From Lichina pygmaea (lineage: Eukaryota; Ascomycota; Lichinomycetes; Lichinales; Lichinaceae), in contig OY730172.1 in assembly GCA_963422465.1 (NCBI GenBank), forward strand, positions 62,001-126,000: 64,000 nucleotides of DNA. Reading direction: 5' to 3'. Positions 23,326 through 50,399 of the stretch are shown here, one piece after another. Both the position numbers and the translations under genes were made by a program. Position 1 is the first letter of the stretch, and the number at the start of each line of letters is the position of its first letter. The notes under the pieces were generated by a model. That model was not told the DNA's origin. It ran no database searches and saw only the letters and a list, made by a program, of their open reading frames with translations.

Positions 23326-24064
23326 CGTGAGGATCTGCTAGGGGGGGGAGTGGCCTTGGCACCGCGGCGTTGTTAATCGAACAGGGACCACCTGTTAAAG
23401 AAGGAGAGTGGTCGTACGAGGAGACGTCGCCGCTCCAGTGCCTAAGGGCCGTGTGATAGCCAAAGTGCTGGCTTGATGGTTTTGCCTAAGGCCTTGCCAC
23501 GAAGTCTCTTCGTACGATCCACAATCTGGGGCCAGGGGACTGGGTTATCCAGTGGGCCAACAGGTCCAACCGAGGCCCCACAGGCGACAGCGGACCAAGG
23601 AGAACTCCTCCCTACTTGGTTAGTGGGCTGGAAAGGCGGCCCTGCAGGTGCTGGCACGGCCTGCAGGGTCCGTAAGGCCTGCGAGGCATGGTCGGCCTTC
23701 GTACGAGAGATCTGCGAAGGTAACGCGAAACAGTTAACAACTGCGAGGCGTGGCATATAATGGCAGTGACGGAGGTAGGGCCTGGGCCTACTACGAGACT
23801 GTCTATATGGCCCGAGAGGACGGATGCGCATGCCGGTTCGTATGGAGTGCAGGCTTAGGCTGCAAACAACAAGCTCAGGGAGCAAACTACAGTTGGAGCG
23901 TGGGCTCTGGGCTGGTGACCCAGCGCTCCGAAGCAGGATCCCAGGGGTGAGCACGTACGGCGGAGTGCAAGAGACCTCGGGACTGTGGGAAAGCGTGGTA
24001 GAGACCCTGTGGGGGGGTGCCAACTCTACACTATGTTCTGGCATAGTACGACTGTGGTCCAGAG
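23326..24064. other. Unassigned sequence between ORF1 remnant and LINE fragment
   Basis: This segment is GC-rich, unlike the AT-richer LINE that follows. Fragments of open frames exist on both strands but none is convincing. It may be the 3' part of the element whose ORF1 lies at 21541-23325, or the original genomic target. Confidence 0.35.
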
Positions 24065-24928
24065 ATTCTCCAAAAGATTCTGAAAAGAAAAGGAATCCCT
24101 CTCTGGCTAACTTCTTGGATCTTCTCTTTCTGTACCAGACGTACCACCACTCTAGTTTTTGATGACTCTGAGTCCTCTTCTATTCCTATTCACTGTGGAG
24201 TCCCCCAAGGTTCCCCTTTGTCTCCTATTCTTTTTCTATTTTATATTTCTGAACTTCATGAGACTGTACATTCTCCTACTACTGGTGTTTCTGCTCTGGG
24301 ATTTGCAGATGATAGAAATCTGCTTGCATTTGGACACTCTCTTAAAAGCAACCTTCTGAAGTTGAAGAATACACATCTTAAATGTCTATCTTGGGCTGCA
24401 AGACATGGAATGGTCTTCTCTCCTGAGAAATATGAAATACTTCATTTTTCCAGAAGATCAGACAATCTGCAGCTCAAGCTTAGACTTGGGAATGTGATTC
24501 TAAAACCAAAAGAAGAAGTGCGAGTATTGGGAGTGTACCTGGATGCCAAACTCCACTGGCACAAACACCAGAGAATTATTCTTCAAAAAGCACAAAAAGC
24601 ACTATCTTCTCTTTCTAGAACCTCTTACTCCACCTGGGGCTTTCCAGTTCTCACAGCACGTCTTGTGTACACTGCAATACTCAGATCTGTACTGAGCTAT
24701 GCAGTGGGAATTTGGTTCAACCCACTCAGAAAATCCTCTAATATTTCCTCTCTTATCATATTCCAAAACAAATATCTGAGACTTATTGGGGGTGCTTTCA
24801 AAGCCACTTCTTCTTTTCTATTAGAGAGTGAGCTTTTTCTTTTACCCCTAGATCTCTATTTTAAACTTCGCAAAAAGAAAAAGCTATGCTGGATGGCAGG
24901 TGTTTTGCCAAAAACCTCACTACAACAA
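24065..24928 (+). mobile_element. LINE copy 1, 5' segment (5'-truncated, split by gypsy element A)
   Basis: The sequence matches ORF2 of the full-length LINE (28265-33208) in the opposite orientation, from the middle of the reverse transcriptase onwards. It carries SPILFLFYISELHETVHS, FADDRNLLAFGHS (the family's FADD box, with R after it) and LGVYLDAKLHWHKHQRIILQ. The first 100 bp are frame-shifted. The match stops at AACAA (24924-24928) where the LTR of element A begins and resumes at 36428 after its other LTR, so the two belong to one old copy. Confidence 0.9.
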
Positions 24929-25529
24929 TGTTACGACCCAGGGGATGGGAGCCACTCATTTGTAGGCAATCAGGCCGCGGGCCAGGCAAGAGGACACCAT
25001 GGAAGTCAAGTGACCAACCAACAAGGGGTCACGTGACTGTCGAGACACACACGGGAGTCTCGACACAGGATGCATGAAGCGTCGAGACAATCTCACCAGT
25101 CTCGACGCAGGATACATGAAGCATCGAGACAATCTCACCAGTCTCGACGCAGGATGCATGAAGCATCAAGACAATCTCACCAGTCTCGATGCAGGGTGCA
25201 TAACATGGTGGGACTGTCGAGACAATCTCACCCGTCTTGACGTCGAGACTGTCGAGACAATCTCAATTGTCTTGACAGGCCAGCACTATATAGTCTGGCG
25301 ATAGTTCCCTTATGGAACAATCATCTTCAACTTATGTTGTGATCCAGACAACTAGATCTACTTCAATACAATCCTTTTGTACAAAGCTATTGATCAGGTG
25401 TCACCACCACCATGTTCTACCAAACTCCTTCGCGCTCCTTGACACTCCTCTCCTGCGAGAACCAACCTGCCTTCCACCTCTCGCCCTAATCCTATACTCG
25501 GATAGGACAGTACGGTACGGACCGCAACA
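24929..25529 (+). repeat. 5' LTR of gypsy element A (601 bp)
   Basis: It is bounded by TG...CA. A TATATA box lies at 25287-25292 inside an imperfect palindrome (GCCAGCACTATATAGTCTGG). Upstream is an array of 42-bp units at about 25070-25195. This LTR keeps most CpG sites that the 3' LTR has lost. Confidence 0.93.
25070..25260. repeat. Tandem 42-bp units with 8-bp inverted repeats in LTR A
   Basis: Three units and a partial fourth repeat the pattern GTCGAGAC, a 10-nt spacer (AATCTCACCA), then GTCTCGAC, which is its exact complement. The 3' LTR has the matching array at about 35955-36160 in mutated form (GTCAAGAC / GTCTTGAC). The array sits upstream of the TATA box, where promoter-binding sites would lie. 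Confidence 0.85.
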
Positions 25530-26462: not shown

Positions 26463-28438
26463 GACAACTACGATCAGACATTGGAAGCAGCCCACCAACT
26501 GGCAACATCAGGAGGCAAGGACCTACCAGAACTGACAGGTCAGGACAAGGGACAGGAGTCCTTAACTACCTCTGATAGGGACCAAGACAAACCCACGTCT
26601 ATCAAAGAAGAAATACCACAAGGAAGCTATGCTTACAGTATGGACTCACAAAACCTACAGCACAGCGAACTACAGTGGAGGTTTTGCACGAAGCACTACT
26701 ACACCTACCACGAACAACTACAAAGGTACGGAGAACATTCACCCTACCACACCACCTGCCACAAGCATTAGGTCAATTGCAAGAAGGATACGTGTGAAAT
26801 CTATCTTTGGGACAAACACCAACACACCGCATTCCCCGGGCACACACATGATTGGCACAAACACCTCATGTTCCTACAGCAAGGCAACAACCACAACTGC
26901 TACGTCAACAATTGGCAGTACTGCCTCAAGCCTGGATGTGACAAGCATCAGCAAGACAAATTCATGAACAGATTCCTCAGGACTGATGGGAATGGCTGGA
27001 CCTATTGCCCAGTCAGTGGAAAGACACTTCAATCAGGAAAAGACTGAACTCCCTTGTCAAGGGGCAACATCAGGAGCTCAACAACATGACCCCTAGCAAC
27101 ACAAAGCACCTGCGATTGCCTGTGTCACTACACACCAACACGCCAGTACAGACATACACACTTGTTGACTCTGGAGCCAGTGGAAACTACATCTTGAGAT
27201 AACTTTACAACACCCTCAGCACTGGAAGGAGACGCAAGCAGTAGCCCTATCAGCTCACGATGGCAAATAGACAGACAGAGCTAGTCTGCCATAAGACGCA
27301 GCCAATGGAAATAGTTACCAGACACCATGCTGAAAGAATCCACCTTGATATTGTCAAGTTGGCCACTCAGGATATCTATTTGGGGATGCCTTGGCTAAAG
27401 AAGCACAACCCAGTTGTTAACTGGAGGACAGGAGTACTCATGTTTAGGAACTGCACTAACAACACAGCTCAGACCTGTTACCAGCCGTAGAAGGCGTGGA
27501 CAGATGAGGGAAGGAGTCCTCAGTGGAACCTCACTGACAGAAAGGACAATTCTCAAGAGAAGAGGTCTGCCTTGACAGGCACACCCCAGAACCAGGTGGC
27601 CAAGCAGTCAGAGATGAAGAGAGAGGAAGTTGTTAACCCTCTGGAGATCTCTGAAAAGTACTGACCTGGGTATGATAACCTCTTTCAGGAAGAGACAACA
27701 ACAGCAGTGTTGCCTAAGCACCAACCTTGGGATCATGAGATCAAGTTGCAACCAGGGATGGAGCCAGGATTTGGACCAATTTACCAGTTATCAGAGAAAA
27801 AGCTCCAAGTACTTTGCGAGTACCTGGAGGAAAACCTGAAAAAGAGTTTCATTCAAGAATCTCAATCGCCAGCAGGATACCCGATACTATTTACACTAAA
27901 GAAAGACAGAAGTCTTCAACTTTGTGTGGATTACAGGAAACTCAACAACATTACCATCAAGAACTGATATCTGTTACCAAATGCGAACAAATTGCGAGAC
28001 AGGATCAGCCAAGCTACAATCTTTACCAAGCTGGACTTGAAAGGAGCATACAACCTGATACGCATGAAAGAAGGAGAAGAATGGAAGACAGCCTTCAGAA
28101 CCTGATACAGACACTACAAGTATCTGGTTATGCCATTCGGACTCACGAACACACCAGCAACATGTCAAGCATTGATCAACAACGTCATCAGAGCACACCT
28201 GGACCAAACAGCTATCGCCTACCTGGACGATATTCTTGTCTACTCAAACACACAACAGGAACATTTTTTTTTTATTTTTATTTGATTCTTACACTGGTAG
28301 TAGCTTTACAGCCATGCAGATCTTCTAGCTAATAGTGAACTCCTTCAGAAAACCTTTGAAGAGATAAAAACTGAAGGCAGGGTGTGACTAGGGAATGTAA
28401 CAAAAGGAATCTTGAAGTTTCTGGTAAGAGAAGAGAAT

Positions 28439-31400
28439 CTAGGTATTGGATTGGGAATAGTGGAGTTTGAAAGCTAGATTAAACTGGTTTAGTCTTTTCA
28501 AAGACATAAACCAGTACAAGAACTTCTGTAGTAGCTCTGGGTTTGAAATAATAGTGGTGAAGTCTTGGGGATTAAAAGAGACTTGTTGTCTTTGTCTTGA
28601 ATAAAGAGAGCATGAAGAGGTGATATGTTTTGCAGTTTCTTCTGCTTGGCCACACACACATAGTGGGGTAGGGAAGTCAGGAACTCCAGCTCTGAAAAGA
28701 AAACTTGCCAGACCAATTCTTCCAGTCCTGATTTGCAGTAGCAGACTTGCCTCAGCTTTCTGTAACTCTTTGTAGAGCTTCAGATTGTTTTTGTGTGGCT
28801 TTTGACAGAAAGTCTGCCAGCCTGGATAGCTTCTTCTTTTCTTCTCTTCCCATTGGTCTTCCCACTCTTTAGTAAAGAGCTTTTGTAGTTCTTTCTTTGA
28901 ACTAGCCTGGTTAGTAGTTATTTGACTTAACCAAGTGAATTTCCACTTAGGAGAGATAGTTGAGAATTCCTTTAAAGGTTTCTTCAAGAGAGAGGCATAG
29001 CTGGAAATAGTGGAAAAGATACTGTCAAGAAAGTATTTGAGAGGGGAGTTTTGAATAGAAGAAAGAAAACAGGCAGTGCAAAATTTAAAGTATAGGTCTA
29101 GAGGTAGAAGAAAAAGCTCACTCTCTAATAGAAAAGAAGGAGTGGCTTTGAAGACACCCCCAATAAGTCTTAGGCATCTGTTTTGAAATGAAACAAGAGA
29201 AGAGATATTGGAGGATTTTCTTAGAGGGTTAAACCAGATCCCCACTGCATAGCTCAGTAGAGATCTCAGTATAGCAGTGTACACCAGACGTGATGTGTGA
29301 ACTGGAAAGCCCCAAGTAGAATAGGAAGTTCTAGAAAGAGAAGAGAGTGCTTTCTGTGCTTTTTGAAGAATAATCCTCTGGTGTTTGTGCCAGTGGAGCT
29401 TTGCATCTAGGTACACTCCAAGTACTCGCACTTCTTCTTTTGGTTTGAGAATCACATTCCCCAGTCTGAGCTTGAGCTGAAGATTGTCTGATCTTCTTCT
29501 GGAAAAATGAAGTATTTCATATTTCTCAGGAGAGAAGACTATTCCATGTCTTGCAGCCCATAATAGACATTTGAGGTGTGTGTTCTTTAACTTCAGAAGG
29601 TTACTTTTCAAGGAGTGACCAAAAGCAAGCAGATTTGTATCATCTGCAAACCCCAGGGCAGATACACCAGAAGAGAGAGTATGCACAGTCTCATGCAATT
29701 CAGAAATGTAGAATAGAAAAAGAATAGGGGATAATGGAGAACCTTGAGGAACTCCACAATGAATAGGAATTGAACAAGACTCAGAATCATCAAAGACAAG
29801 AGTGGTAGAGCACTTATCACAGAAGGAGTAGATCCAGGAAGCTAGCCAGGCAGGTATTCCTTTTCTTTTCAGAATTTGCTGTAGTATCTTGGGGAGAACT
29901 CTGTCATAGGCTCCTGAGATATCCAGTGAGAGTAGGGATGCAACTATGCCTTCCTTCCAGACTTTTTCCACTTGGGAGGTTAGAAGGAAAAGTGCTGCTT
30001 CTGTGGATCTTCCTTTCCTAAAGCCCATCTGGATATCTGGCAATAGTCCAGCTTCTTCTGCTATCTTGCTTAGTCTGGCTGCAGCAATAGCTTCCATCAG
30101 CTTGCCTGTTGTGTTTAGCAGAGCTATAGGGCGCCAGACTTTAGCTTGATTGTAGGTTCCCTTGCCAGGTTTCCTCAAGCAGACTGTTTTTGCACTCTTA
30201 AATCTTTCAGGGAAGTACTCCAGTTTCCAGCATGTTGAAGTCAGAATAGCTAGAGCTTGGCAGAACCTAGGCCCCAGAGCTCTCAGAAATCCATTTGGCA
30301 GCTTATCTCTCCCTCCTGCTGTGAAAGGTTTCTTCTTGGCCAGAATTTGCTCCACTTCTTCACATGTTACCTCCTGGGAGAGCTGTATCTCAGAGATAGT
30401 CTGGGAGCTTTCTGAGCCTGGTTCTGGAACTAGAGCTTTTGGAAAGAACTGCTGTGAGAAGGCTTTAGTCTTTTCCTCAAAGGTTTTGGCTATTCCTTCT
30501 TGTGTTTCCAGGTCAGGAACCAGAGGAAGATCAGAAGTCTTGTTGGCTTTGGACCTTCCCCACTTTGCAAGCTTCCAGAACTTTGAAGAGCTGGCCAGCT
30601 GATGGATTTGGTGTCTGAAAGTGTTCTGTTTTCCATCTCTGACTGCCTTTTTCTTGAGCTTAGTTGCTTGCTCAAGTTCCTCTTGACTTGCTTGTCTTTT
30701 TTGCACTTTTCTTCTTACTCTTCTTTCCTCTTTAACCTTGTTTTGGATCTCTTGATTCCACCAGGGGACTGAGTGGCCAGATTGCTTCTGGAGCTGTGTG
30801 GATTTGCTTGCTATTTCTTGGAGAAAGTTGTCAAGATACTCCAAGTACTCATCCACTTCATATTTGTCTTGGAAGTGGGAGGGCAGGTGTAGCTTCTCAC
30901 ACTCTACTCTTGCAAGGTTTGAGTCCAGTGTTCTCCAGTTTCTTTCTGGTTTCCAGATTTTCCTTGGAGGATCCAGGTCCAGGCAGGTTAGTACAGGTCT
31001 GTGGTCAGACCCATGAAAGAACTGAAGAGCCACTTTGGAGAAAATCAGAGAGTTAGAAAGAGAAGAAGAAATAAAAGACAGATCAATAGCAGAACATGGT
31101 TTTTCAGAAAGAGATCTTGCTCTGGTAGGGGTGAAAGGTGCAATAGCTAAATCCAGATTTAAATCTTTCATTAGGTCTTGAAACTTGTTTGCAGTCTCAG
31201 AGTACAGTCTTCTTTTCTTTGACCAGTCTGGGTGGTGAAGATTTGAGTCTGTGAGAAGAATATGTTGTCCTTGTTCTTGTAAAGCATTTTGGAGTAAACA
31301 GAGAAGAGCTTCTGATGCCTCTGTGTAGTTTTCTTGACTTGATGGGGTGAAGTAGAGATTATGTACCCAAAGAGAAGTAGAAGAGTTTTCCAAGTAGATT

Positions 31401-35292: not shown

Positions 35293-35784
35293 TCACGAAC
35301 TGCCAGCTCCTCCTGCAGCAGTTCCAGCAGAAGCAGGACTGAACAGCTTGGCCTGCAGCGTGGACATGTCAATAACTGTCACTGACAAGTCTTCACCATC
35401 CACCTCCATTTCAGTAACAAGACACTGGAGCTTCTTCTTTGCTTGACCCCCGGCACCTTCAAGAACCTTTCACTTTCAGGACACACAAGCCTGCAGCTTG
35501 GCAAGCTGCTCAACAAGAGCATCCCGCTTGGCCTCATCAACAGCCAAATCCTCACAAAGGTTATCTTGAGTTATGTTCAGCGACTCCCAAGAAAGTGACA
35601 CACAGGACTTCCTACAACAAGTGCATTCAGCGCACTTCAACTTATTGTTGTCATCAGACATTCAGAAGCAGGGCTTGTGGTTCAAAACACAGAAGTCACA
35701 CAGAGCAAGCAACACAAAGTTATGATCACAGATCTGGGCTGCCAGTTGGTTTCGGTAAGCAGAGGCACGTGATTTTGCAGACAT
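35293..35784 (-). pseudogene. Antisense Zn2Cys6-type ORF of gypsy element A (in-frame TGAs)
   Basis: Read on the minus strand from ATG 35784 to the TGA at 35295-35293 the frame is about 163 codons with three internal TGA codons (after CF at residue 40, and twice after ACVS). It has cysteines at residues 29, 32, 39, 51, 54 and 61, which is CX2CX6CX11CX2CX6C. A helical segment follows (LAVDEAKRDALVEQLAKLQ), then an acidic-hydrophobic stretch. The start lies 45 nt inside the 3' LTR, and the end overlaps the chromodomain codons of pol by 50 nt. Element B has the same arrangement at 41952-42524 with intact frame. The function is inferred from the Cys spacing only. Confidence 0.7.
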
Positions 35785-35828: not shown

Positions 35829-36427
35829 TGTTACAACCCAGGGGATGGGAGCCACTCATTTGTAGGCAATCAGGCTGTAGGCCAGGCAAGAGGACACCAT
35901 GGAAGTCAAGTGACCAACCAACAAGAGGTCACGTGACTGTCGAGACACACAGGAGTCTTGACGCAGGATACATGAAGTGTCAAGACAATCTCACCAGTCT
36001 TGACGCAGGATGCATGAAGCATCAAGACAATCTCACCAGTCTTGACACAGGATGCATGAAGCATCAAGACAATCTCACCAGTCTTGACGCAGGGTGCATA
36101 ACATGGTGGAACTGTCAAGACAATCTCACCTGTCTTGACGTCAAGACTGTCAAGACAATCTTGATTGTCTTGACAGGCCAGCACTATATAGTCTGGTGAT
36201 AGTTCTCTTATAGAACAATTGTCTTCAACTCATGTTGTGATCTAGACAACTAGATCTACTTCAATACAATCCTTTTGTACGAAGCTATTGATCAGGTGTC
36301 ACCACCACTATGTTCCACCAAACTCCTTCGCACTCCTTGACACTCCTCTCCTGCGAGAACCAACCCACCTTCCACCTCTCGCCCTAATCCTATACTTGGA
36401 TAGGACAGTACAGTACAGACTGCAACA
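35829..36427 (+). repeat. 3' LTR of gypsy element A (599 bp)
   Basis: It pairs with 24929-25529. Differences are almost all C:G to T:A transitions, many at CpG; for example GTTACGACCC has become GTTACAACCC and GGCCGCGGGCC has become GGCTGTAGGCC. The TATATA box is at 36185-36190. Confidence 0.93.
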
Positions 36428-36432
36428 AACAA

Positions 36433-36584
36433 CCTAAAGCTCTACAAAGAGCTACAGAAAGCTGAGGCAAGTCTACTACTGCAAACCAGAACTGGGAGAA
36501 TTGGTCTAGCAAGTTTTCTTTTCAGAGCTGGAGTCTCTGACTTTCCTACCCCTCTATGCATGTGTGGTCAAGCAGAAAAGACAG
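36433..36584 (+). mobile_element. LINE copy 1, middle segment
   Basis: Between the target duplications of elements A and B the ORF2 3' part continues: NLKLYKELQKAEASLLLQ, RIGLASFLFRAGV and the start of the cysteine motif (CMCGQAEKT). It continues 24065-24928 and is followed by 42981-43354. Confidence 0.9.
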
Positions 36585-36589
36585 TAAAG

Positions 36590-37014
36590 TGTTAAGGCCT
36601 AGGCCGGAACAGCCCAGGTAAGCAAGGGAGGAGTGTTAGTCATACAGAACAACATCTGACTGATCTGGTGGACAAGCAAGAGCTAAGCGAGGAGCTTGTC
36701 CGGTGGACAAGCAGGAGCTAAGCGAGGAGCTTGTCTGGTGGACAAGCAGGAGCTAAGCGAGGAGCTTGTCCACGTAAAAGGATGATACCCCTTGAGGAGA
36801 CCCCCCCCCTCAGAGCATCTGTATAAAGACTCCCCAAAGGGCCCGGAGGGATTAGCTCTCCAGGCTGAACACAACACGCACACATCATACTGAGACAATA
36901 GTACAGAGAGAGTTATTTATCTGTCTATTTCTCTATCAAGTCCCTGTCTAGAATCCACCCTGCAAAGCAACAGACTGTACCAGTTTCTGTGTGAACCTGG
37001 CCCAGCCTTTAACA
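36590..37014 (+). repeat. 5' LTR of gypsy element B (425 bp)
   Basis: It contains three 35-bp tandem units (about 36664-36770) upstream of a TATAAAG box at 36822-36828. The 3' LTR has only two units, which accounts for the 35-bp length difference. By eye the LTRs differ by about 22 further transitions and no transversion, most of them at CpG. Confidence 0.93.
36664..36773. repeat. 35-bp tandem units with 8-bp inverted repeats in LTR B
   Basis: The unit is GGACGAGC, a 16-nt spacer, GCTCGTCC (as preserved in the 3' LTR, about 42663-42733), so the arms are exact complements. In the 5' LTR the arms have become GGACAAGC and GCTTGTCC. The copy number is three in the 5' LTR and two in the 3' LTR. 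Confidence 0.88.
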
Positions 37015-37052
37015 GTTTCAGCCTCTAACACATAGAACACTGACTTGATACA

Positions 37053-38276
37053 ATGGTGGATCCACGAAGCCCTACCCCTTCTCAGGTGGCCCAAGCCCAG
37101 GCTGCTCAGGTGGCTCAGGCCCAGGCTGTCCAGGCAGCACCTATTGTTAACCTACCCCCGAAGCTCTTGAAGGTAGGTGCCCTGAAGAGGTATAATGGAT
37201 CCAGGGGAGGACTGGAGTTGTTCTTCTCACAACTGGAGCTCTACTATAGGTTCAACACAGCCCAGTTCCCGACAGACCAGGAGAAGGTGCTATTTGCAGC
37301 CTCCTACCTGGAAGGACCAGCCTTCGCTTGGTTCAATGTCTACTTAAGGGATTACCTAGACAATCAGGCAGACCCCAAGGAGTAAGAAGACAATACCTGA
37401 CAGATCATGGGAAGCTTGAAAACCTTTAAGACAGCCATGAGAAAGACATTTGGGATTCTTGATGAGGAGAGGGATGTGGAACAAAAGCTCCAAGCACTGC
37501 GGCAAACTGGATCAGTATCGGAATTCACAGCAAAGTTCCAACAACTAGCAGTGAGAACCCAGTGGGAGGACAGTGCACTAACAGCACTATTCTACCAAGG
37601 CCTCAAGGAACAAGTCAAGGATGACATCACACAAGGAGACTGACCAACCAAGCTCTACAAAATAATCAAGACTGCAGCTCGCATCAACGACTGACAGTTT
37701 GAGAGAGAGCTTGAGAAGTGAGGCAAGCAGACAAAACTATAGGTGAAGAAAAAGCCAACATCTGCCAAAGATAACTACAGCTTGGTACCCATGGAAATCA
37801 ATGTGGTGGAACCACAAAAGAAGGAGACACAGAAGTGTTACAACTGTCAGAAAGTGGGCCACCTTGCGGTGAACTGCAGGAGCAAGAAGAAGAACAAGAA
37901 GGGCAAAGGGAAGCAGTTGAACACCACAAGTGCCTGGAAAGGCAGGGAGACGGAGGAGCCCCAGAGAGCCCCCCAAGGCACACTACCCCACAATCACCCT
38001 GAGGTGGCACTCCTCAGAGAGGAGGACAACCTCCGACAACACACTGAAAAACTTGAGAACATGCTTCAGGAAAATTTGGATCACCTCAACAAGGTCCAAA
38101 GGAAAGTTGACAGAATCCACTGGGAGGAAGACCTGATCTCCGAGTTTGACACAACCAGCTATATGGAGGAACAGGTTGACAACAAGGAAGCCCAGCCACC
38201 ACCAGTCCCTGACAAACCTGTCCTTCAACAACAGGACACAACCCTATCAGAAATAGGGGAGACGCAAGTGTCATGA
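37053..38276 (+). pseudogene. Gag of gypsy element B (in-frame stops)
   Basis: It starts at ATG 37053 with an Ala/Gln-rich N-terminus. A capsid-like region follows (LELFFSQLELYYRFNTAQF, AASYLEGPAFAWF, SVSEFTAKFQQLAVRTQW) and a CCHC knuckle (CYNCQKVGHLAVNC, about 37836-37877). The last third is Glu/Gln-rich with a likely coiled coil (NLRQHTEKLENMLQENLDHL). Stops lie at about 37383, 37398 and 37641 and between 37690 and 37742. Confidence 0.85.
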
Positions 38277-38503
38277 TGAGTCAACAATACCCTCAGCATC
38301 ACACAGGTCAGAGACATCACCACACAAGTGGACCTACACCAGGCTACAACAGCAGCCTGCGGACAATCTTATTGGAAGGTGTGCGAAGATGACCACTGCA
38401 AGGAACACCTTCTAGAGAAAAGAAAGAAGATGTGGTTCCCAGGGTCCGAGGTGGAAGCGTGATGGAATATGCACATCCAAAGAGTCAACCCTGAACAAGA
38501 TGA

Positions 38504-41500
38504 TTGCAACCAAGATCTGTGGGAACAATGCCTCACCACATGATGCAAACAACACATGGTAGAGTGTCAGGCCCAGGGCCTAGGCAGCTCAAAAAACTAG
38601 CAGCACTCTTCAAAACTGGGGTTGGAAGAGCAGGCAAGACAACACCCCGGGAGGAAGGAGTCAAGCCAAGACTTGACACAACAGTCTGCAGCCCACACTT
38701 TCACATCAAGATCAGAGTCAATGGGTGGTTGGCTAAAGCTATGATCAACTCTGGTGCGACTGGCAACTTCATGTCAGAAAGCTTTGCCAGAAGAAACAAG
38801 GTTCCAGTCCAAGACAAGAAAGATCTCTACCAGTTGACAGTGGTGGACAGAACACCACTCTCCAAAAACAAGGGATAAGTGACGAAGGAGACCAAGAGCC
38901 TGAGACTGAGTGTCTATGGCACAACAATCAGAACAGAGGAATTCAACTTGGTCTGAATACCACACGAAGTTATATTGGGACTTCTGTGGTTGGAAAAACA
39001 AAGCCCAAGGATTGACTGGACAAGAAGGCAACTAGTCTTTCCAGATAAGACACTGGTCACATCAGAACCAGGGGTGATGATTAAAGAAATCTCACTGACA
39101 CGCTGGAAGAAATACCACCGGCACAGGTAGGCCTGTGTGGCCTGGATGAAACCCCGAACACAACAACTTTGCACCACGCAAGACACTGTGAGTGAGACTC
39201 AGGCACCGCAGTTGCCAAGTGAGTATAAAGAATACCAGGAGATGTTCGAAGAAACAGTGATTGCGACACTACCAGAACATCAGGAGTGGGACTACAAGAT
39301 TCCGCTGGAAGATGGAAAAAAACCCACACACAGCCCTATCTACACTCTGTCAGCAAAAGAGCTTGAGGCCCTGAGAGACTACCTGGACAAGAACCTAGTG
39401 AAAGAGTTCATAAGACCTTCAACATCACCAGCTGGATACCTGATATTGTTTGTGCCAAAGAAAGACAGCAAACTTTGACTGTGTGTTGATTATCGGCAGC
39501 TAAATGTGATTACAGTGAAAAACTGCTACCCGCTGCCATTGATATCAGAAATCCAAGACCAGATCTGAGGAGCCAAATAGTTTACCAAGTTCAACATTTG
39601 AGGTGCTTTCAACCTGGTTAGGATGAAAGATAGCGAAGAATGGAAGACAGCCTTTCGTACGAGGTACAGGCACTACAAGTATACTGTGATACTATTTGGC
39701 CTTACGAATGCACTAGCAACATTCCAATCACTTATTAACACTGTCCTCCGACAATACCTGGACATATTTGTCACTGCTTATATCGACGATGTCTTGGTAT
39801 ACACCAATAGAACCTTGGAGGAGCATAAACAGCATGTCAAAACAATCCTACATGCACTCCAGAAAGCAGGCATGAGGTTACACCTTGATAAAAATGTTTT
39901 CCACACAAAAGAAGTGGAATATTTGGGGTTGATCCTGACAACAGAAGGAATCCGAATAGACAACACAAAGACAGCAGCAGTACAAGACTGGCCAACACCC
40001 AAAAACCTCAAAGAAGTACAATCCTTCCTAGGATTTGCAAACTTCTACTGACAATTCATCAAGAACTACTCAAGAACAGTAGCAGTCTTGACAGAGTTAA
40101 CCAGAAAGAACAAATCTTTCAGGTGGGGGGAGAGCCAACAAGTGGCCTTCCAGGAGTTGAAGAATAAATTCATCTCCGCACCTATTTTGGCATCATTTGA
40201 TCCCGAGAAGAGGATCATTCTGGAAACTGATGCCTCAGACCAAGCATTGGGATCCTGCTTGTGTCAACCAGACGCTGACAACTGCTTACACCCTGTCGTG
40301 TACTGATCAAGAAAGTTCTCTGGCCCAGAACTGAGGTACGATGTTCACGACAAAGAGTTGCTAGCAATCATCAACGTATTCCAAGAATGGAGGCCTTACT
40401 TGGAGGGGGCAAAATACACAGTAGACATGTACTCAGACCACAAGAACTTAGCTTACTTCACAACAACAAAGAAGCTAAACTGACAACAAGTTCAATGGGC
40501 AGAGTTGTTAGCATCATACAACTTCCAAATCCTCTACTGGAAGGGCACTGAAAATGCTTGAGTGGACACACTCAGCAGGTGACCAGACCTGATGGATAAG
40601 AAAACAACAGAGGAACACCCAATCCTAGCGACAAAAGGACAAACCCTGGTCTATGCCCAACCCCAACTGGCAACAACTGAAACAAAGGGTCCACTCCTTA
40701 CCCTTGGCCACAAGGTGGCAAACAAAAAGGAAATTGTACCAGAAAGAGCACAAGAGGAGGTGATCCAGAGGCACCATGACAGGCCTTTGCACAGACACCC
40801 CGGGCAAGATAAAACCTTGGAGAAAATCCAAAGGAACTACCACTTCAACAGAATGAAGTGCAAGGTGACAGAGTTCATCCGCAACTGTGAACAGTGCGCG
40901 AAGAACAAGCCATCAAGACATAAGCCCTATGGGCAGGCACAGCAAATAGACCTACCCGAGGCACCATGGAAAACTATCATGATGGATTTTGTGGTCAAGT
41001 TGCCAAAGTCAACAGACCCAGCAACAAAGGTGGTATACGACAGTATTTTGGTGGTTGTTGACAAGCTCACCAAATACACCCACCTGGTCCTGTGGAAAGA
41101 GTCAGGAACTGCGAACAAACTTGCGAGTGTCCTACTCAAAGAGCTGGTAAGCTACTGAGGGCTACCAAAGACAATCATCTCAGATCAAGACAAACTCTTC
41201 ACCTCGAAATTCTGGAACACGTGGACAAGGCAACTTGGTATTGATACAAGGATGTCAACAGCCTACCACCCACAAACTGACAGACAAACTGAGCGGACAA
41301 ACCAGACAATAGAGCAGTATCTACAACACTACGTCAACCACCAGCAGGATAACTGGGTGGAACTGCTACCAATAGCCCAGTTTGTGTACAACAACCAGCA
41401 ACACAGTGTGACAGGGACGACACTGTTCTTTGTGAACTACAGAAGAAACCCCTGATGGCAGGCAACAGCAGGAGGCAATGTTGTCAATGTTAGCAAACTC

Positions 41501-41993
41501 ACTGCTATGCACGAGATGATGAAAACAACAATCAACCGTGCCCAGAACACCACTGCCCACTGATTACACAACAAAAGGTTGAAGGGACCAACCCTGGAAA
41601 GGGGGGATAAGGTCTACCTATCAACAAAAAACCTGCACTCAAAGTGACCAAGCAAAAAGCTGGACCACGTACGAATCAGACTATTCAAAATCAAGAAGCG
41701 CACTGGGAAGGTCAACTATCAACTGAGACTACCACGAAAAGCAAGGATACACCGAGTATTCCACGTCTCACTGCTTGAACCAGCACCCAGTGACGCAGAG
41801 ATCAAGACAGAATGGAACTTCAAGGATGACAAAGAAGAGTACAATGTCGAAAGAATTCTGGATAGTTGAAGAAACAGACAGAAAACCAAGTACCTGGTGA
41901 AGTGGTTAGGATTTGACGAAGAGGAGAATTTGTGGGAACCAACCGAGAACTTCAGCTCTGCGATGAACCAGAAGCTGGTGGATTACCACTGAG
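38504..41993 (+). pseudogene. Pol of gypsy element B (PR-RT-RH-IN-chromodomain), multiply stopped
   Basis: The protease region shows AMINSGATGNF, where the catalytic Asp of the usual DSG is replaced by Asn. The RT runs from about 39393 (FIRPSTSPAGYLILFVPKKD) through AYIDDVLVYTN (about 39778). RNase H has ETDASDQALGSCLCQ and DKELLAI. The integrase has HRHPGQDKT, CEQCAKNK and DFVVKLPKSTDP. The chromodomain lies at about 41840-41945 (YLVKWLGFDEEENLWEPTEN). Most internal stops are TGA where relatives carry Arg, as in NFY-stop-QF and KLN-stop-QQV. Confidence 0.9.
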
Positions 41994-42524
41994 CAAACCC
42001 GCAGTGACCAGGTCTGACAGGGACAACAGCTCAAGAGAAGCCAAAGTCTCTGAAGAGAAGACATCCTCAAAGGACAGTGGAGCAGTAGCCTGACTGGCCT
42101 CCTGTTTGCGGATAACATGGAGAGCTTCTTGTTCCTGAGCATCAAGGGACTCTTGATCCTTGATGGCTGACAGCTCATGACAGATGGCATCAGCCTCCTT
42201 CTGTGAGAGATGACCCAGCTGCCGGCGGAGGCAGATCTGCTGGGGAAGCAACTTTGACAATTGGTCATCAGTCTCCCGCAGCTGAGCCTTGAGCTGCTCG
42301 CACTCAAGTTCCATCTTCTTCCATTCTGATTCTGAGAGATGAAGGTCACAGCGACAACTCTTCTCAACACACCGACAACAAAAAGATGATGCGGAGCTCA
42401 CGACACACTTGGCGTGGTCACGACGACAAGCACCGCATGTGATTTTTGATTCCTTGCCTATTTTGCCAATACGACAAGAAAGAAAACTGTGACGACAAGT
42501 TCGAGTTGTCTGGCCTTGGTTCAT
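41952..42524 (-). CDS. Antisense Zn2Cys6-like protein encoded by gypsy element B
   Basis: An uninterrupted 190-codon frame lies on the strand opposite to gag-pol. Its ATG is 62 nt inside the 3' LTR and its 3' end overlaps the end of pol by 42 nt. Cysteines at residues 30, 33, 40, 49, 52 and 59 (CX2CX6CX8CX2CX6C) match the Zn(II)2Cys6 fungal DNA-binding cluster, and CGACRRDHAKC has the usual basic residues. A charged coiled coil follows (about residues 65-135, e.g. EWKKMELECEQLKAQLRET) and then an acidic-hydrophobic C-terminus (LSFEDVFSSETLASLELLSL). It stays open in an element whose sense genes are full of stops. Transcription would have to start in or near the 3' LTR. A role as element-encoded transcription factor is inference; another zinc-binding protein is possible. 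Confidence 0.75.
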   Translation of the reverse strand: MNQGQTTRTCRHSFLSCRIGKIGKESKITCGACRRDHAKCVVSSASSFCCRCVEKSCRCDLHLSESEWKKMELECEQLKAQLRETDDQLSKLLPQQICLRRQLGHLSQKEADAICHELSAIKDQESLDAQEQEALHVIRKQEASQATAPLSFEDVFSSETLASLELLSLSDLVTAGLLSGNPPASGSSQS

Positions 42525-42585
42525 GACAAAAGAGGAGCAGGAACGAAAAGGATCTGGGGACAGAACCCTTGGAGGGAGGGGATAG

Positions 42586-42975
42586 TGTTAAGGCCTAGGC
42601 CGGAACAGCCCAGGTAAGTGAGGGAGGAGTGTTAGTTATACGGAACAACATCTGACTGATCCGGTGGACGAGCAGGAGCTAAGCGAGGAGCTCGTCCGGT
42701 GGACGAGCAGGAGCTAAGCGAGGAGCTCGTCCACGCAAAAGGATGATACCCCTCGAGGAGACCCCCCCCCTCGGGGCATCTGTATAAAGACCCCCCAAAG
42801 GGCCCGGAGGGATTAGCTCTCCAGGCTGAACACAACACGCACACATCGTACTGAGACAATAGTACAGAGAGAGTTATTTATCTGTCTATTTCTCTATCGA
42901 GTCCCTGTCTAGAATCCGCCCTGCGAAGCAACAGACCGTACCGGTTTCTGTGTGAACCCGGCCCGGCCTTTAACA
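42586..42975 (+). repeat. 3' LTR of gypsy element B (390 bp)
   Basis: It has two 35-bp units, a TATAAAG box at 42783-42789, and ends TTTAACA. It retains CpG at most places where the 5' LTR reads TpG or CpA. Confidence 0.93.
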
Positions 42976-42980
42976 TAAAG

Positions 42981-43354
42981 CATATTACCTCTTCATGCTC
43001 TCTCTACTCAAGTCAAAGACAACATGCTCTCTTTAACCCCCAAGATTTCACTACTATTATTTCAAACCCAGAGCTTCTACAGAAGTTTCTGTACTGGTTT
43101 ATGTCTTTGAAAAGACTAAACCAATTTAATCTGGCTTTCAAACTTCACTATTCACACCCCAACATCTAGAAGCTTTTCCTACCAGACACTACAAGATTTC
43201 CTTTTGCTACACTTTCTAGTCACCTCCCTGTCTTCAGTTTTTATTCCTTTAAAGGTTTTCTGAAGAAGTTCACTATTAGCTGGAAGATCTGCATGGCTGT
43301 AAAGCTACAAACAGTGTAAGAATCAAATTAAAAATTAAATTAAAATTAAAAATC
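42981..43354 (+). mobile_element. LINE copy 1, 3' segment
   Basis: It contains the last ORF2 codons (NPQDFTTIISNPELLQKFLY, then LKRLNQFNLAFKLHYS) and a 3' UTR that matches the full-length copy (TCTGCATGGCTGTAAAGCTA). It ends in an A-rich tail of ATTAAA-like units at about 43325-43354. Confidence 0.9.
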
Positions 43355-47568
<4,214 letters not shown>

Positions 47569-50399
47569 ATGGACAGCATCAAGTCCGTCCTAAAGCTCTC
47601 GGCCGTCTGCCTGCTGAGCTTCCCTGCCATCTTCGGGGACGTCGCCGAGGGAGCCGTTGCTGGCCCCAAGACCGTCAGACGCGGAAGGTGGGAATTCACG
47701 AGCCAACGATGCGGTAGACGACTCCCGGCGTGCCCGGACGGATACAAATGCCGCAGGTTCGACAATGAGCGCAGGTGCCGGAGGAGGTTCCGCAGGCCCC
47801 GACGCAACAGGAGGCCCAACGATCCCGTTTCGACCGATGAGCCTTCCTCGACGGTCTACCCAGACTCAAGCTGCTCTACCGGCTACGGCTTCACCTCGTG
47901 CTCGAGCTACGATCCCACGCCGACTGACTATTCGGATTCGAGCTACGATCCCACGCCGACTGGCTATTCGGATTCGAGCTGCTCGACCGGCTACGGCACC
48001 ACCTCGTGCTCGAGCTACGATCCCACGCCGACTGGCTACTCGGATTCGAGCTGCTCGACCGGCTACGGCACCACCCCGTGCTCGAGCTACGATCCCACGC
48101 CGACTGACTATTCGGATTCGAGCTGCTCGACCGGCTACGGCACTACCTCGTGCTCGGGCTATGATTCCACGTCAACCTGTCCTCCAGGCGAGACTCTCTA
48201 CTATCCGCCGACTGACTATGCGAGTTCAAGCTGTTCGACCGGCTACGGCTACACCACCTGCTCGAGCTATGATCCGAAGCCGACCTGTATCCCCTCTGGA
48301 GGCGGGGACGGTGGCGGTGGCGGTGACGGCGGTGGTGACGGCGGTGGTGGTGATGGTGGCGATGGTGGTGGTGATGGTGGCGGTGATGGCGGTGATGGCG
48401 GTGATGGTGGTGATGGTGGCGGTGATGGTGGTGATGGTGGTGATGGTGGCGGTGATGGTGGTGATGGTGGTGGTGGCGGCAACGACAACAAGACCTTCAC
48501 CCCGATCACTGGCGTCAAAGGCGGCGTGGTCGAGCGTCTCCCCATCAACGTGCTCCAGCGCGATCATGCCGACACCTTCAACCTGTTCATCCTGGCCTTG
48601 GAGAGCTTGCAGCAGCGCGATGAGGCGAACGACGAGAGTTACTATCAACTGAGCGGTGAGTACTCGAGCTTCTCCTGCCTCCCCCCCCCCCCCCCCCCCC
48701 CCGCGGGGAAAGCCCATCCGCTGATCACCATGTTGCAGGCATCCACGGTTTCCCCTACGCTCCGTGGCAGTATCCACCCGAGGCGACCGCCAACGAGGGC
48801 TATGGCTACTGCACTCACGGGAGCCGCCTCTTCACGACCTGGCATCGCCCGTACGTTCTCCTCTTGGAGCAGCTGCTGTACGAGCAGGCTAGCAAGATCG
48901 CCGACCGCTTCACGGACGACAAGTACCGCACCGCCCTGGAGCAGCTCCGACTACCGTACTGGGACTGGGCCTCGGACGACACCCAGTCGCGCATACCCGG
49001 CGTCCTATCGCAGGCTTCGATCAGCGTCGTCAAGCCGGGCGCCGATGGCGGCGAGGACCGGACCGAGATCCAAAACCCGCTCTACACGTACCGCTTCCGC
49101 AGCTCGCAGCCATCCGAGTCCGGTCTCGACGCCGCCGTCGTCCGCAGCGGCGACGCCAACGAGCTTCTGTTCGATACCTTCCAGAGTCGGCAGGAGGCCA
49201 CGCTTGACCTGTTCACCATCGACAGCTACGACGATTTCTCGTCGACGTGCGAAGGCATCCACGGCGCCGTGCACGTCCTGGTCGGCGAGGACATGGCCGA
49301 GGTCCGCTCGTCCGCCTTCGACCCGATCTTCTGGCTGCATCACTGCCAGGTCGACCGTCTCATGGCGCTCTACCAGGCCACCCACCCGGGTGACTACCTG
49401 ACGCCCGGTCCGCGTCGCGACACCTTTGCCCTCGGAGGCGCCGGTCCGGACGACCTCTCGACTCCACTCTATCCCTTCCGACACGACGACGGCAAGGAGT
49501 GGACTTCGGACGAGGTCAAGACCGTCGAGAGCATCTTCACGTACGGGTACGCCTACCCCGAGACGCCCAACGGACGATCGGGCGAGGACCTTCGCGCCTA
49601 CGCCACCGAGCAGATCAACCGTCTGTACGGCCCGGACACCAACGACGCTTCCTTCCAAGGCGACGAATCCGGCGCTCCGGAGGGTAAGTGCCCATCTCCG
49701 CCGTCTCTGTCCCGATGGTGACTGACACGCTGCTGCGCTTCAAACAGTCGCCGCGGCACGTCGCGAATGGGGCGCCAACGTCATCGTCAACGTCAACGAC
49801 GTGCCAGGCTCTCACCGCATCCTCCTCCACCTTGGGCCCCACGACAAGGAGAATCCAAACCCCCAGAGGGACTCGGAGAACCTGGTCGGTGTCGCGCCCA
49901 TCTTCACCGGGCCGGATCCGAAGGGCGAGAAGGATCGGGTGCTCAACCTCACGGTCCCGCTCACGCCCGGTCTCGCGTCGAGGAACGTGGCCCTGAGTCC
50001 CGAAGGCGCCGTCCCGTCGCTCTCGGATCTTCTGTACTGGACCGTCGAGAAGGTATGCCGCAACCTCTTTCGATGCTCCGAGACCTTACGCGTTGCTGGA
50101 ACCGGCTGACCGTCTCATCGTTCTAGGTCGGAGGGTCGGCCGAGGCCGTGCCAATCTCGGAACTGCCGTCTCTCAAGGTCTCCGTCGTCAGCTCCGTCAC
50201 CGAATACCCCGACGACAAGAAGGAGCTGCCGAAACGCGCGGGGAAACTGGTCCACTACGCGCCCACCAAAGACAAGAAAGCCGGTCTTCGGTCCGACGAG
50301 GCCCCGCCTCTCGGGGCGAAGGCGCCGCCACAACTCGACGACGAGGTCGCAGTTGTCAACGGCACCTCCAGCAGCAACGGAACGAGCCAGGCCCCCTAG
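47569..50399 (+). CDS. Secreted modular tyrosinase with Cys-repeat and Gly-Asp-rich N-terminal extension
   Basis: Exons 47569-48655, 48739-49683, 49748-50052 and 50127-50399 give 869 residues. Tyrosinases are type-3 copper enzymes that hydroxylate monophenols and oxidise diphenols, often for melanin. The start ATG 47569 opens a signal peptide (KLSAVCLLSFPAIFG). Then come an Arg-rich four-Cys segment (CGRRLPACPDGYKC), about five repeats of the type DPTPTGYSDSSCSTGYGTTS, and a 60-residue Gly-Asp-rich linker. In the catalytic domain, CuA has GIHGFPYAPW, YCTHGSRLFTTWHRPYVLLL (with the Cys-x-His thioether pair) and LRLPYWDWASDD. CuB has GIHGAVHVLVGEDM and FDPIFWLHHCQVDRL. A C-terminal domain of about 250 residues follows, as in latent fungal tyrosinases. 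Intron phases agree at all three junctions. Confidence 0.93.
48299..48482. repeat. GGTGAT/GGCGGT trinucleotide-based repeat coding the Gly-Asp linker
   Basis: It codes runs of GGGDGGDGG in the tyrosinase between the Cys repeats and the catalytic domain. All units are multiples of three. Confidence 0.9.

Follow-up and report, generated by a model that had tools for sequence, protein, structure and literature searches.

A conserved antisense gene encoding a predicted Zn2Cys6-type protein in chromoviruses of the ascomycete Lichina pygmaea

A stretch of 64,000 nucleotides from Lichina pygmaea (assembly GCA_963422465.1, contig OY730172.1, positions 62,001 to 126,000 of the forward strand), referred to below as the window, contains element B, a Ty3/Gypsy retrotransposon with a chromodomain (a chromovirus). 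As seen in Table 1, a 190-codon open reading frame (ORF), ORF B, runs opposite to gag-pol in this element. ORF B is a coding gene under selection, as can be seen between two subfamilies of its copies, and there is hardly any doubt on this point. Its product is predicted to be a Zn2Cys6-type DNA-binding protein, and a comparable gene was found in a second chromovirus lineage of the same genome, element A.

The plus strand of element B retains pieces of gag (a Ty3_capsid match below the cut-off and a zinc knuckle), protease (also below the cut-off), reverse transcriptase, integrase H2C2 and the chromodomain. The sense frames of the window copy are interrupted by in-frame stops, pol included. ORF B is intact, with an ATG at 42524 and a stop codon at 41952-41954. 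Its ATG lies 61 nt from the edge of the 3' long terminal repeat (LTR), behind the complement of a purine-rich tract, and its end falls within the last codons of the chromodomain, where pol and ORF B overlap tail to tail by 41 nt. The encoded protein has cysteines at residues 30, 33, 40, 49, 52 and 59 (CX2CX6CX8CX2CX6C), followed in an AlphaFold model by helices at residues 65-104 and 108-146; the last 47 residues include 5 acidic and 13 hydrophobic residues and no lysine or arginine. The intact frame, the stops in the sense genes, the six-cysteine signature and the order of a coiled coil followed by an acidic-hydrophobic C-terminus had all been described in the initial annotation of this DNA, and each of these descriptions was borne out.

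Copies were sought by searching the genome (32.47 Mb in 8 contigs) in all six frames. The ORF B protein matched at least 150 places (277 candidates, 150 scored), and about 47 of the best 150, including two partial matches, have no stop as counted by eye. With a diverged relative (P0068) as the query, a second subfamily of 61 places was found (85-99% identity, 53 without a stop by eye), together with a third, more decayed subfamily. The copies analysed comprise the best 30 plus L072 for subfamily 1, 30 of the 61 for subfamily 2, and 11 for subfamily 3. The opposite strand carries pol, tail to tail with the antisense frame, in 71 of these 72 copies (31/31, 30/30 and 10/11 in subfamilies 1, 2 and 3). 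Additionally, 9 B-type Chromo places (150-153 bp) occur among the 150 Chromo places listed, and by eye all 9 adjoin an opposite-strand ORF B place. Stops per 100 codons, counted in 30 copies of each of the first two subfamilies, amount to 0.51 (subfamily 1) and 0.04 (subfamily 2) for the antisense frame and to 1.21 and 0.44 for the 3' portion of pol; the count is biased because the copies were picked by protein score, which favours intact antisense frames. Conservation of the frame and of the six cysteines among copies had been set beforehand as a test by which the proposal could fail, and both were found conserved in three subfamilies. The cysteines common to all three are exactly the six of the cluster, with no others.

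A stop at codon 8 was observed in 20 of the 31 subfamily 1 copies, and the frame often remains open when read from a Met at about codon 22, which still precedes the zinc cluster. The working start of ORF B may be this internal one, near codon 22. Protein searches for relatives of the ORF returned 71, 89 and 17 matches, all from the source ENA, and these lists cannot establish absence from other fungi because the search needs shared 5-residue words and the one with 89 matches scored only 8000 candidates. Short hypothetical proteins with a comparable set of cysteines and a coil may occur in other ascomycetes, a possibility to which no weight is given here.

Selection is most evident between subfamilies 1 and 2. 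When a fixed difference is defined as a column whose base differs between the subfamilies and is kept by 90% or more of the copies (176 columns per codon position), the two subfamilies show 24, 19 and 54 fixed differences at codon positions 1, 2 and 3 (p=1.5e-5 against equal). The sites segregating within subfamily 2 are distributed as 39, 30 and 33, which differs from the fixed differences (p=0.004). In pol, used as a control, the fixed differences number 35, 31 and 114, and the share at position 3 is not significantly different from that of ORF B (p=0.25). The cluster region, residues 26-62, has 3, 1 and 12 fixed differences, and the six-cysteine cluster is the strongest selection signal in ORF B. 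The mean NG86 ratio of nonsynonymous to synonymous change (dN/dS) over 150 pairs from the two subfamilies is 0.27 in the ORF B frame, and thus not near 1, the value named in advance as contrary to the proposal. Also, the gaps between the two subfamilies are whole codons. In a neutral simulation of one pair with an equal amount of change, the observed amino-acid identity was reached in 0 of 5000 cases, and the frame stayed open in 1.4%.

A chance ORF, or a shadow cast by coding on the sense strand, could be suspected on several grounds. By its openness the frame is no more than moderately unusual, an ATG ORF of at least 190 aa having appeared in 13 of 2000 cases when the 1 kb around it was shuffled by dinucleotides; nucleotide identity between the subfamilies equals 0.69 in the ORF and 0.70 in the LTR; and one sense-strand frame gives a similar dN/dS in the same 150 pairs (0.37). 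This last similarity arises because the third positions of the two frames coincide; the remaining four frames give 0.89-1.74. Each of the five alternative frames has, in each of the three subfamilies, stops that 80% or more of the copies share; the coinciding sense-strand frame has 5, 4 and 5 of them in subfamilies 1, 2 and 3, and pol has already ended before most of ORF B. Sense-strand coding as the source of the periodicity was rejected on the shared third positions and these fixed stops. ORF B stands above chance because it is conserved, in its copies, its six cysteines and its codon-position constraint, and not because of its length, and it was on conservation that a chance ORF was rejected. 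With the neutral simulation and the repetition of the pattern in lineage A also opposed to it, this explanation is very improbable.

Some comparisons gave weaker results. A McDonald-Kreitman-style ratio is 0.70 with all changes (p=0.15) and 0.27 with transitions only (p=1e-4), and the coinciding frame gives the same. The columns without a shared base are distributed over the codon positions as 31/19/45 between subfamilies 1 and 2 (p=0.005) and as 18/13/28 between subfamilies 1 and 3 (p=0.05). Between subfamilies 2 and 3, these columns number 8/3/9 (p=0.21), and the dN/dS of 0.44 is not below that of three other frames (0.41-0.51). That the frame does not stand out here would suit an antisense transcript that matters as RNA, by forming double-stranded RNA or interfering with pol, while the frame is merely tolerated; retroelements are known to have antisense activity of a non-coding kind (PMC7264820, PMC10186651). 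However, the codon-position constraint, the conserved cysteine spacing, the gaps between subfamilies 1 and 2 that span whole codons, and the repetition in lineage A all point to a protein, and a role as RNA is judged improbable.

Within the subfamilies, the dN/dS of the ORF B frame is 0.37, 0.74 and 0.44 (subfamilies 1, 2 and 3), with two other frames lower in subfamily 2. These values carry little information because the copies decay mostly by C to T change at CpG after insertion. CpG sites are segregating in proportions of 78% and 60% in subfamilies 1 and 2, versus 1-29% for other C sites. Across the ORF B region of copies L001-L060, this decay resembles the loss of methylated CpG more closely than CpA-directed RIP (repeat-induced point mutation). 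The observed/expected ratio of CpG is 0.33 in element B versus 1.04-1.07 in two host stretches.

Zn2Cys6 domains (PF00172) are defined by the spacing CX2CX6CX5-12CX2CX6-8C. The cysteines of ORF B in three subfamilies, and those of ORF A (CX2CX6CX11CX2CX6C), fall within this definition. In Pfam, the best Zn_clus score is 20.0 bits (P0003), under the curated cut-off of 21. At E<=1, Zn_clus was matched by 5 of the 6 B-type proteins tried and by none of the 3 of type A, and at E<=10 by 4 of 11 in another set; the Pfam search gave no Zn_clus match for P0001 and L077 (A lineage). Among the 18 structural matches listed for the predicted model of the ORF B protein, 17 are Zn2Cys6 DNA-binding domains, at low Z of 2.3-4.2. 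A PDB sequence search with P0001 alone returned nothing Zn2Cys6-like. The B profile reached LEU3 (E 0.29), HAP1/CYP1 (2.1) and LAC9 (6.7), behind Jun/AP-1 (0.17-0.2), whose rows fall over the coil; no bZIP family is present in the Pfam listings of the ORF proteins, which have the six-cysteine cluster in its place. Taken from spacing and predicted structure, a Zn2Cys6-type DNA-binding fold is very probable for ORF B. The genome has 40 Zn_clus places (34 over the cut-off), fewer than the antisense places (at least 150 and 61 of B, at least 150 of A). By eye, none of the 40 coincides with a listed antisense place, so Pfam annotation would miss these genes.

The second lineage repeats this arrangement. 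The LTRs of chromovirus A start at 24929 and 35829, and ORF A begins at 35784, 44 nt inside the LTR edge. A 61-residue piece of ORF A was found at 150 or more places (487 candidates, 150 scored), 11 of them within a 194-codon open frame by eye, and the intact 166-aa protein is present in four fetched copies. In a second A subfamily (A2), one locus is open over 165 codons up to the locus end; a stop near the end is common to four A2 copies, and L077 is open at that point. Chromo places tail to tail with ORF A number at least 22 among those listed (by eye). Apart from single exceptions, both A subfamilies retain the six cysteines, and C100 and C121 are conserved too. Between the two subfamilies (9 versus 4 copies), the columns without a shared base number 18, 16 and 42 by codon position (p=0.0003), and the ORF frame has a dN/dS of 0.19. 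The frame whose third positions coincide with those of the ORF contains shared stops and gives 0.28; the others give 0.90-1.43. Of the A-lineage proteins tested, none has a Zn_clus match, and the A profile finds no Zn2Cys6 chain in PDB at E<=10. In an hhalign comparison of A with B, the six cysteines align (E 0.0064, probability 5.9%; with a larger A set, E 0.014 and 3.2%), which only suggests a relation between the proteins, whether by common descent or convergence. For lineage A, the Zn2Cys6-like assignment thus remains a putative one, drawn from spacing, architecture and this weak profile alignment. The claim of the initial annotation, a Zn2Cys6-like antisense regulator in chromovirus B, was sustained as to an element-encoded, antisense, coding gene that is Zn2Cys6-like in the spacing of its cysteines, the sequence of its parts and its predicted fold; the regulator role is still putative, and the claim was too narrow in that chromovirus A also carries such a gene. 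A short upstream ATG (ATGAATTCTTGA) stands just before the ORF A start in L073 and L075 and possibly marks a small upstream ORF.

The LTRs of element B offer candidate binding sites. Tandem dyad units sit between the LTR start and the TATA box, in U3. The half-sites GGACRAG and CTYGTYC are both present in all 30 copies (of 31) of subfamily 1 for which the LTR start and the TATA box could be placed, and in 30/30 of subfamily 2. Shuffled U3 sequences contain 0.10-0.12 each, and the part downstream of the TATA box has 0.00-0.03 per copy. The half-site is common to subfamilies with LTRs only 70% identical. Of the 11 copies of subfamily 3, 8 could be placed in this way and 1 of these has the half-sites; two copies show GTGGCAGAG instead. 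The dyad units of element A differ from those of B. Dyad sites of this kind would suit a coiled-coil Zn2Cys6 dimer.

From these elements, the following mechanism can be proposed. An accessory chromovirus gene, extending antisense to gag-pol from near the 3' LTR edge to the chromodomain codons, would be transcribed from the 3' LTR side, as is assumed here. The protein would hold two zinc ions and bind DNA as a coiled-coil dimer, as spacing and predicted fold suggest. In the least certain step, its targets would be the tandem dyad repeats of its own U3, through which it would tune the sense promoter in a manner comparable to HBZ, a protein of another fold, in HTLV-1. Self-regulation of this kind is plausible and specific; that the protein is a dimeric Zn2Cys6-like antisense regulator acting on the element's own U3 is given a little less than an even chance. 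Tandem U3 repeats can serve host factors as well.

Other roles of the protein have to be weighed on the same evidence. An antisense nucleic-acid-binding protein could serve the replication cycle, for example by bringing cDNA into the nucleus or by acting with the chromodomain to direct integration. The selection seen in the frame and cluster is silent about the target, the gene adjoins the chromodomain in both lineages, and accessory functions of such a kind have been proposed for plant antisense ORFs (PMC7264820). However, promoter binding is the better match, by analogy only, for the lineage-specific dyads that precede the TATA box and for a domain order like that of transcription factors, and a role in replication is given about one chance in four in our judgment. 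The protein could also be directed at the host, at its genes or its silencing, and serve for instance in counter-defence, since Zn2Cys6 proteins are regulators of host type with the Zn_clus places counted above in this genome. This idea is speculative and likewise improbable.

For fungal chromoviruses as a group, an antisense Zn2Cys6 regulator may exist in which each lineage's protein is paired with its own U3 dyads, as a fungal counterpart of HBZ in HTLV; this extension is doubtful, and less probable than self-regulation in element B. If true, the group would be a mobile stock of zinc-cluster genes and binding sites able to rewire host regulation, and, if widespread in fungi, a source of new genes and sites of this type spread by transposition. 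The usual description of LTR retrotransposons other than retroviruses names gag and pol only. If two chromovirus lineages of a single fungus share a conserved, putatively DNA-binding antisense protein, this would imply that such elements may govern their own expression, and a concrete protein and concrete DNA sites are now offered for testing.

Table 1. Features of elements A and B in the window
Feature	Position	Strand	Evidence or remark
Element B, Ty3/Gypsy with chromodomain	36590-42975	+	LTR pair and target duplication
5' LTR, element B	36590-37014	+	target duplication TAAAG (5 bp) at 36585-36589
3' LTR, element B	42586-42975	+	target duplication TAAAG at 42976-42980
Antisense ORF, chromovirus B, 190 aa	41952-42524	-	conserved in three subfamilies
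End of pol, element B	41870-41992	+	chromodomain match 41870-41989, pol stop codon 41990-41992
Zn2Cys6-like cluster, residues 30-59, CX2CX6CX8CX2CX6C	42348-42437	-	six Cys kept across subfamilies; fixed differences; structural matches
Predicted coiled-coil helices, residues 65-146	42087-42332	-	AlphaFold model
Acidic-hydrophobic C-terminal tail, residues 147-190	41955-42086	-	composition
Tandem 35-nt dyad units, U3 of 5' LTR, element B	36667-36771		putative target
Tandem 35-nt dyad units, U3 of 3' LTR, element B	42660-42732		candidate target
Likely sense TATA box, TGTATAAAG	42781-42789	+	sequence; downstream of dyad units
Tandem 42-nt dyad units, LTR of element A	35954-36099		
Antisense ORF, chromovirus A, 166 codons	35284-35784	-	four stops in window copy; intact in L073-L076

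Several other repeats are present in the window. Element B is nested in a sequence (36427-36588 and 42977-43344) that recurs inverted at 28264-28790, 86-88% alike, as an uninterrupted relative nearby. Two arms in inverted orientation (421 and 395 nt, with 85-88% complementarity) lie about 4-5 kb apart (24063-24872 versus 29077-29889). Direct repeats at 47830-48304 have start spacings of 72 and 108 nt, multiples of 36, and are possibly repetitive coding sequence. A long GT microsatellite with GC at its end occupies 46885-46992.

Compared with known systems, the antisense proteins resemble Zn2Cys6 factors (Gal4, Leu3, Put3, Hap1; PF00172) in cysteine spacing, in the order of cluster, linker and coiled coil, and in the closest structural matches listed. 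Unlike Gal4-type factors, they are below the Pfam cut-off, only 166-190 aa long and encoded by retrotransposons. As for antisense genes in fungal elements, Zhao et al. 2011 reportedly described one, brtn, in Boty-like elements of Botrytis cinerea. The Boty-like element has a gag-pol with a CHROMO domain (PMC4227169), and brtn is placed between pol and the 3' LTR (PMC7264820; cited too in PMC8365987 and PMC4227169). The likeness to ORF B, compared by position only, therefore extends to an antisense gene in a fungal Gypsy element with a CHROMO domain, between pol and the 3' LTR. Because Boty carries brtn, antisense genes in fungal chromodomain elements are not new as such. The initial annotation, which knew of antisense ORFs in some plant LTR elements and of no Zn2Cys6-type protein encoded in this way in a fungal chromovirus, had overlooked brtn and was incomplete to that extent. 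Among the titles and abstract openings listed from open-licence PMC papers, none reported an antisense protein of the Zn2Cys6 type encoded by a retroelement. In Histoplasma, MAGGY-type LTR transposons show yeast-phase expression in two strains, and the available part of that paper does not mention an antisense retroelement gene (PMC8725592).

The plant antisense ORFs (Grande gene23, RIRE2, Retand, PvRetro13) share with ORF B the antisense orientation, the interval between pol and the 3' LTR and, probably, the presence in most copies of a family (PMC7264820, PMC11963269). The position of ORF B, antisense to gag-pol and between pol and the 3' LTR, is that of the aORF-3R class (PMC7264820). The Grande protein is nuclear, and TRP28 of Retand is predicted to bind DNA (PMC7264820, PMC11963269). 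They differ in that their descriptions, in the parts available, are without a Zn2Cys6 cluster, and the region between pol and the LTR is 2.9-6.6 kb in Retand versus about 0.6 kb in element B. An antisense gene in this position is already known from plant Grande and Retand and from Boty of Botrytis, and it is the Zn2Cys6-like variety, as read from the sequence, that appears to be new. The closest functional model is HBZ of HTLV-1, the model antisense transcription factor, which lowers expression from its own 5' LTR (PMC10186651). HBZ and the predicted ORF B protein have in common a 3'-side antisense gene, a transcription-factor-like DNA-binding protein, a coiled-coil dimerization part and, as proposed for ORF B, action on their own LTR (PMC10186651). 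They differ in that HBZ has a bZIP fold, belongs to a primate retrovirus and has proven transcription and function.
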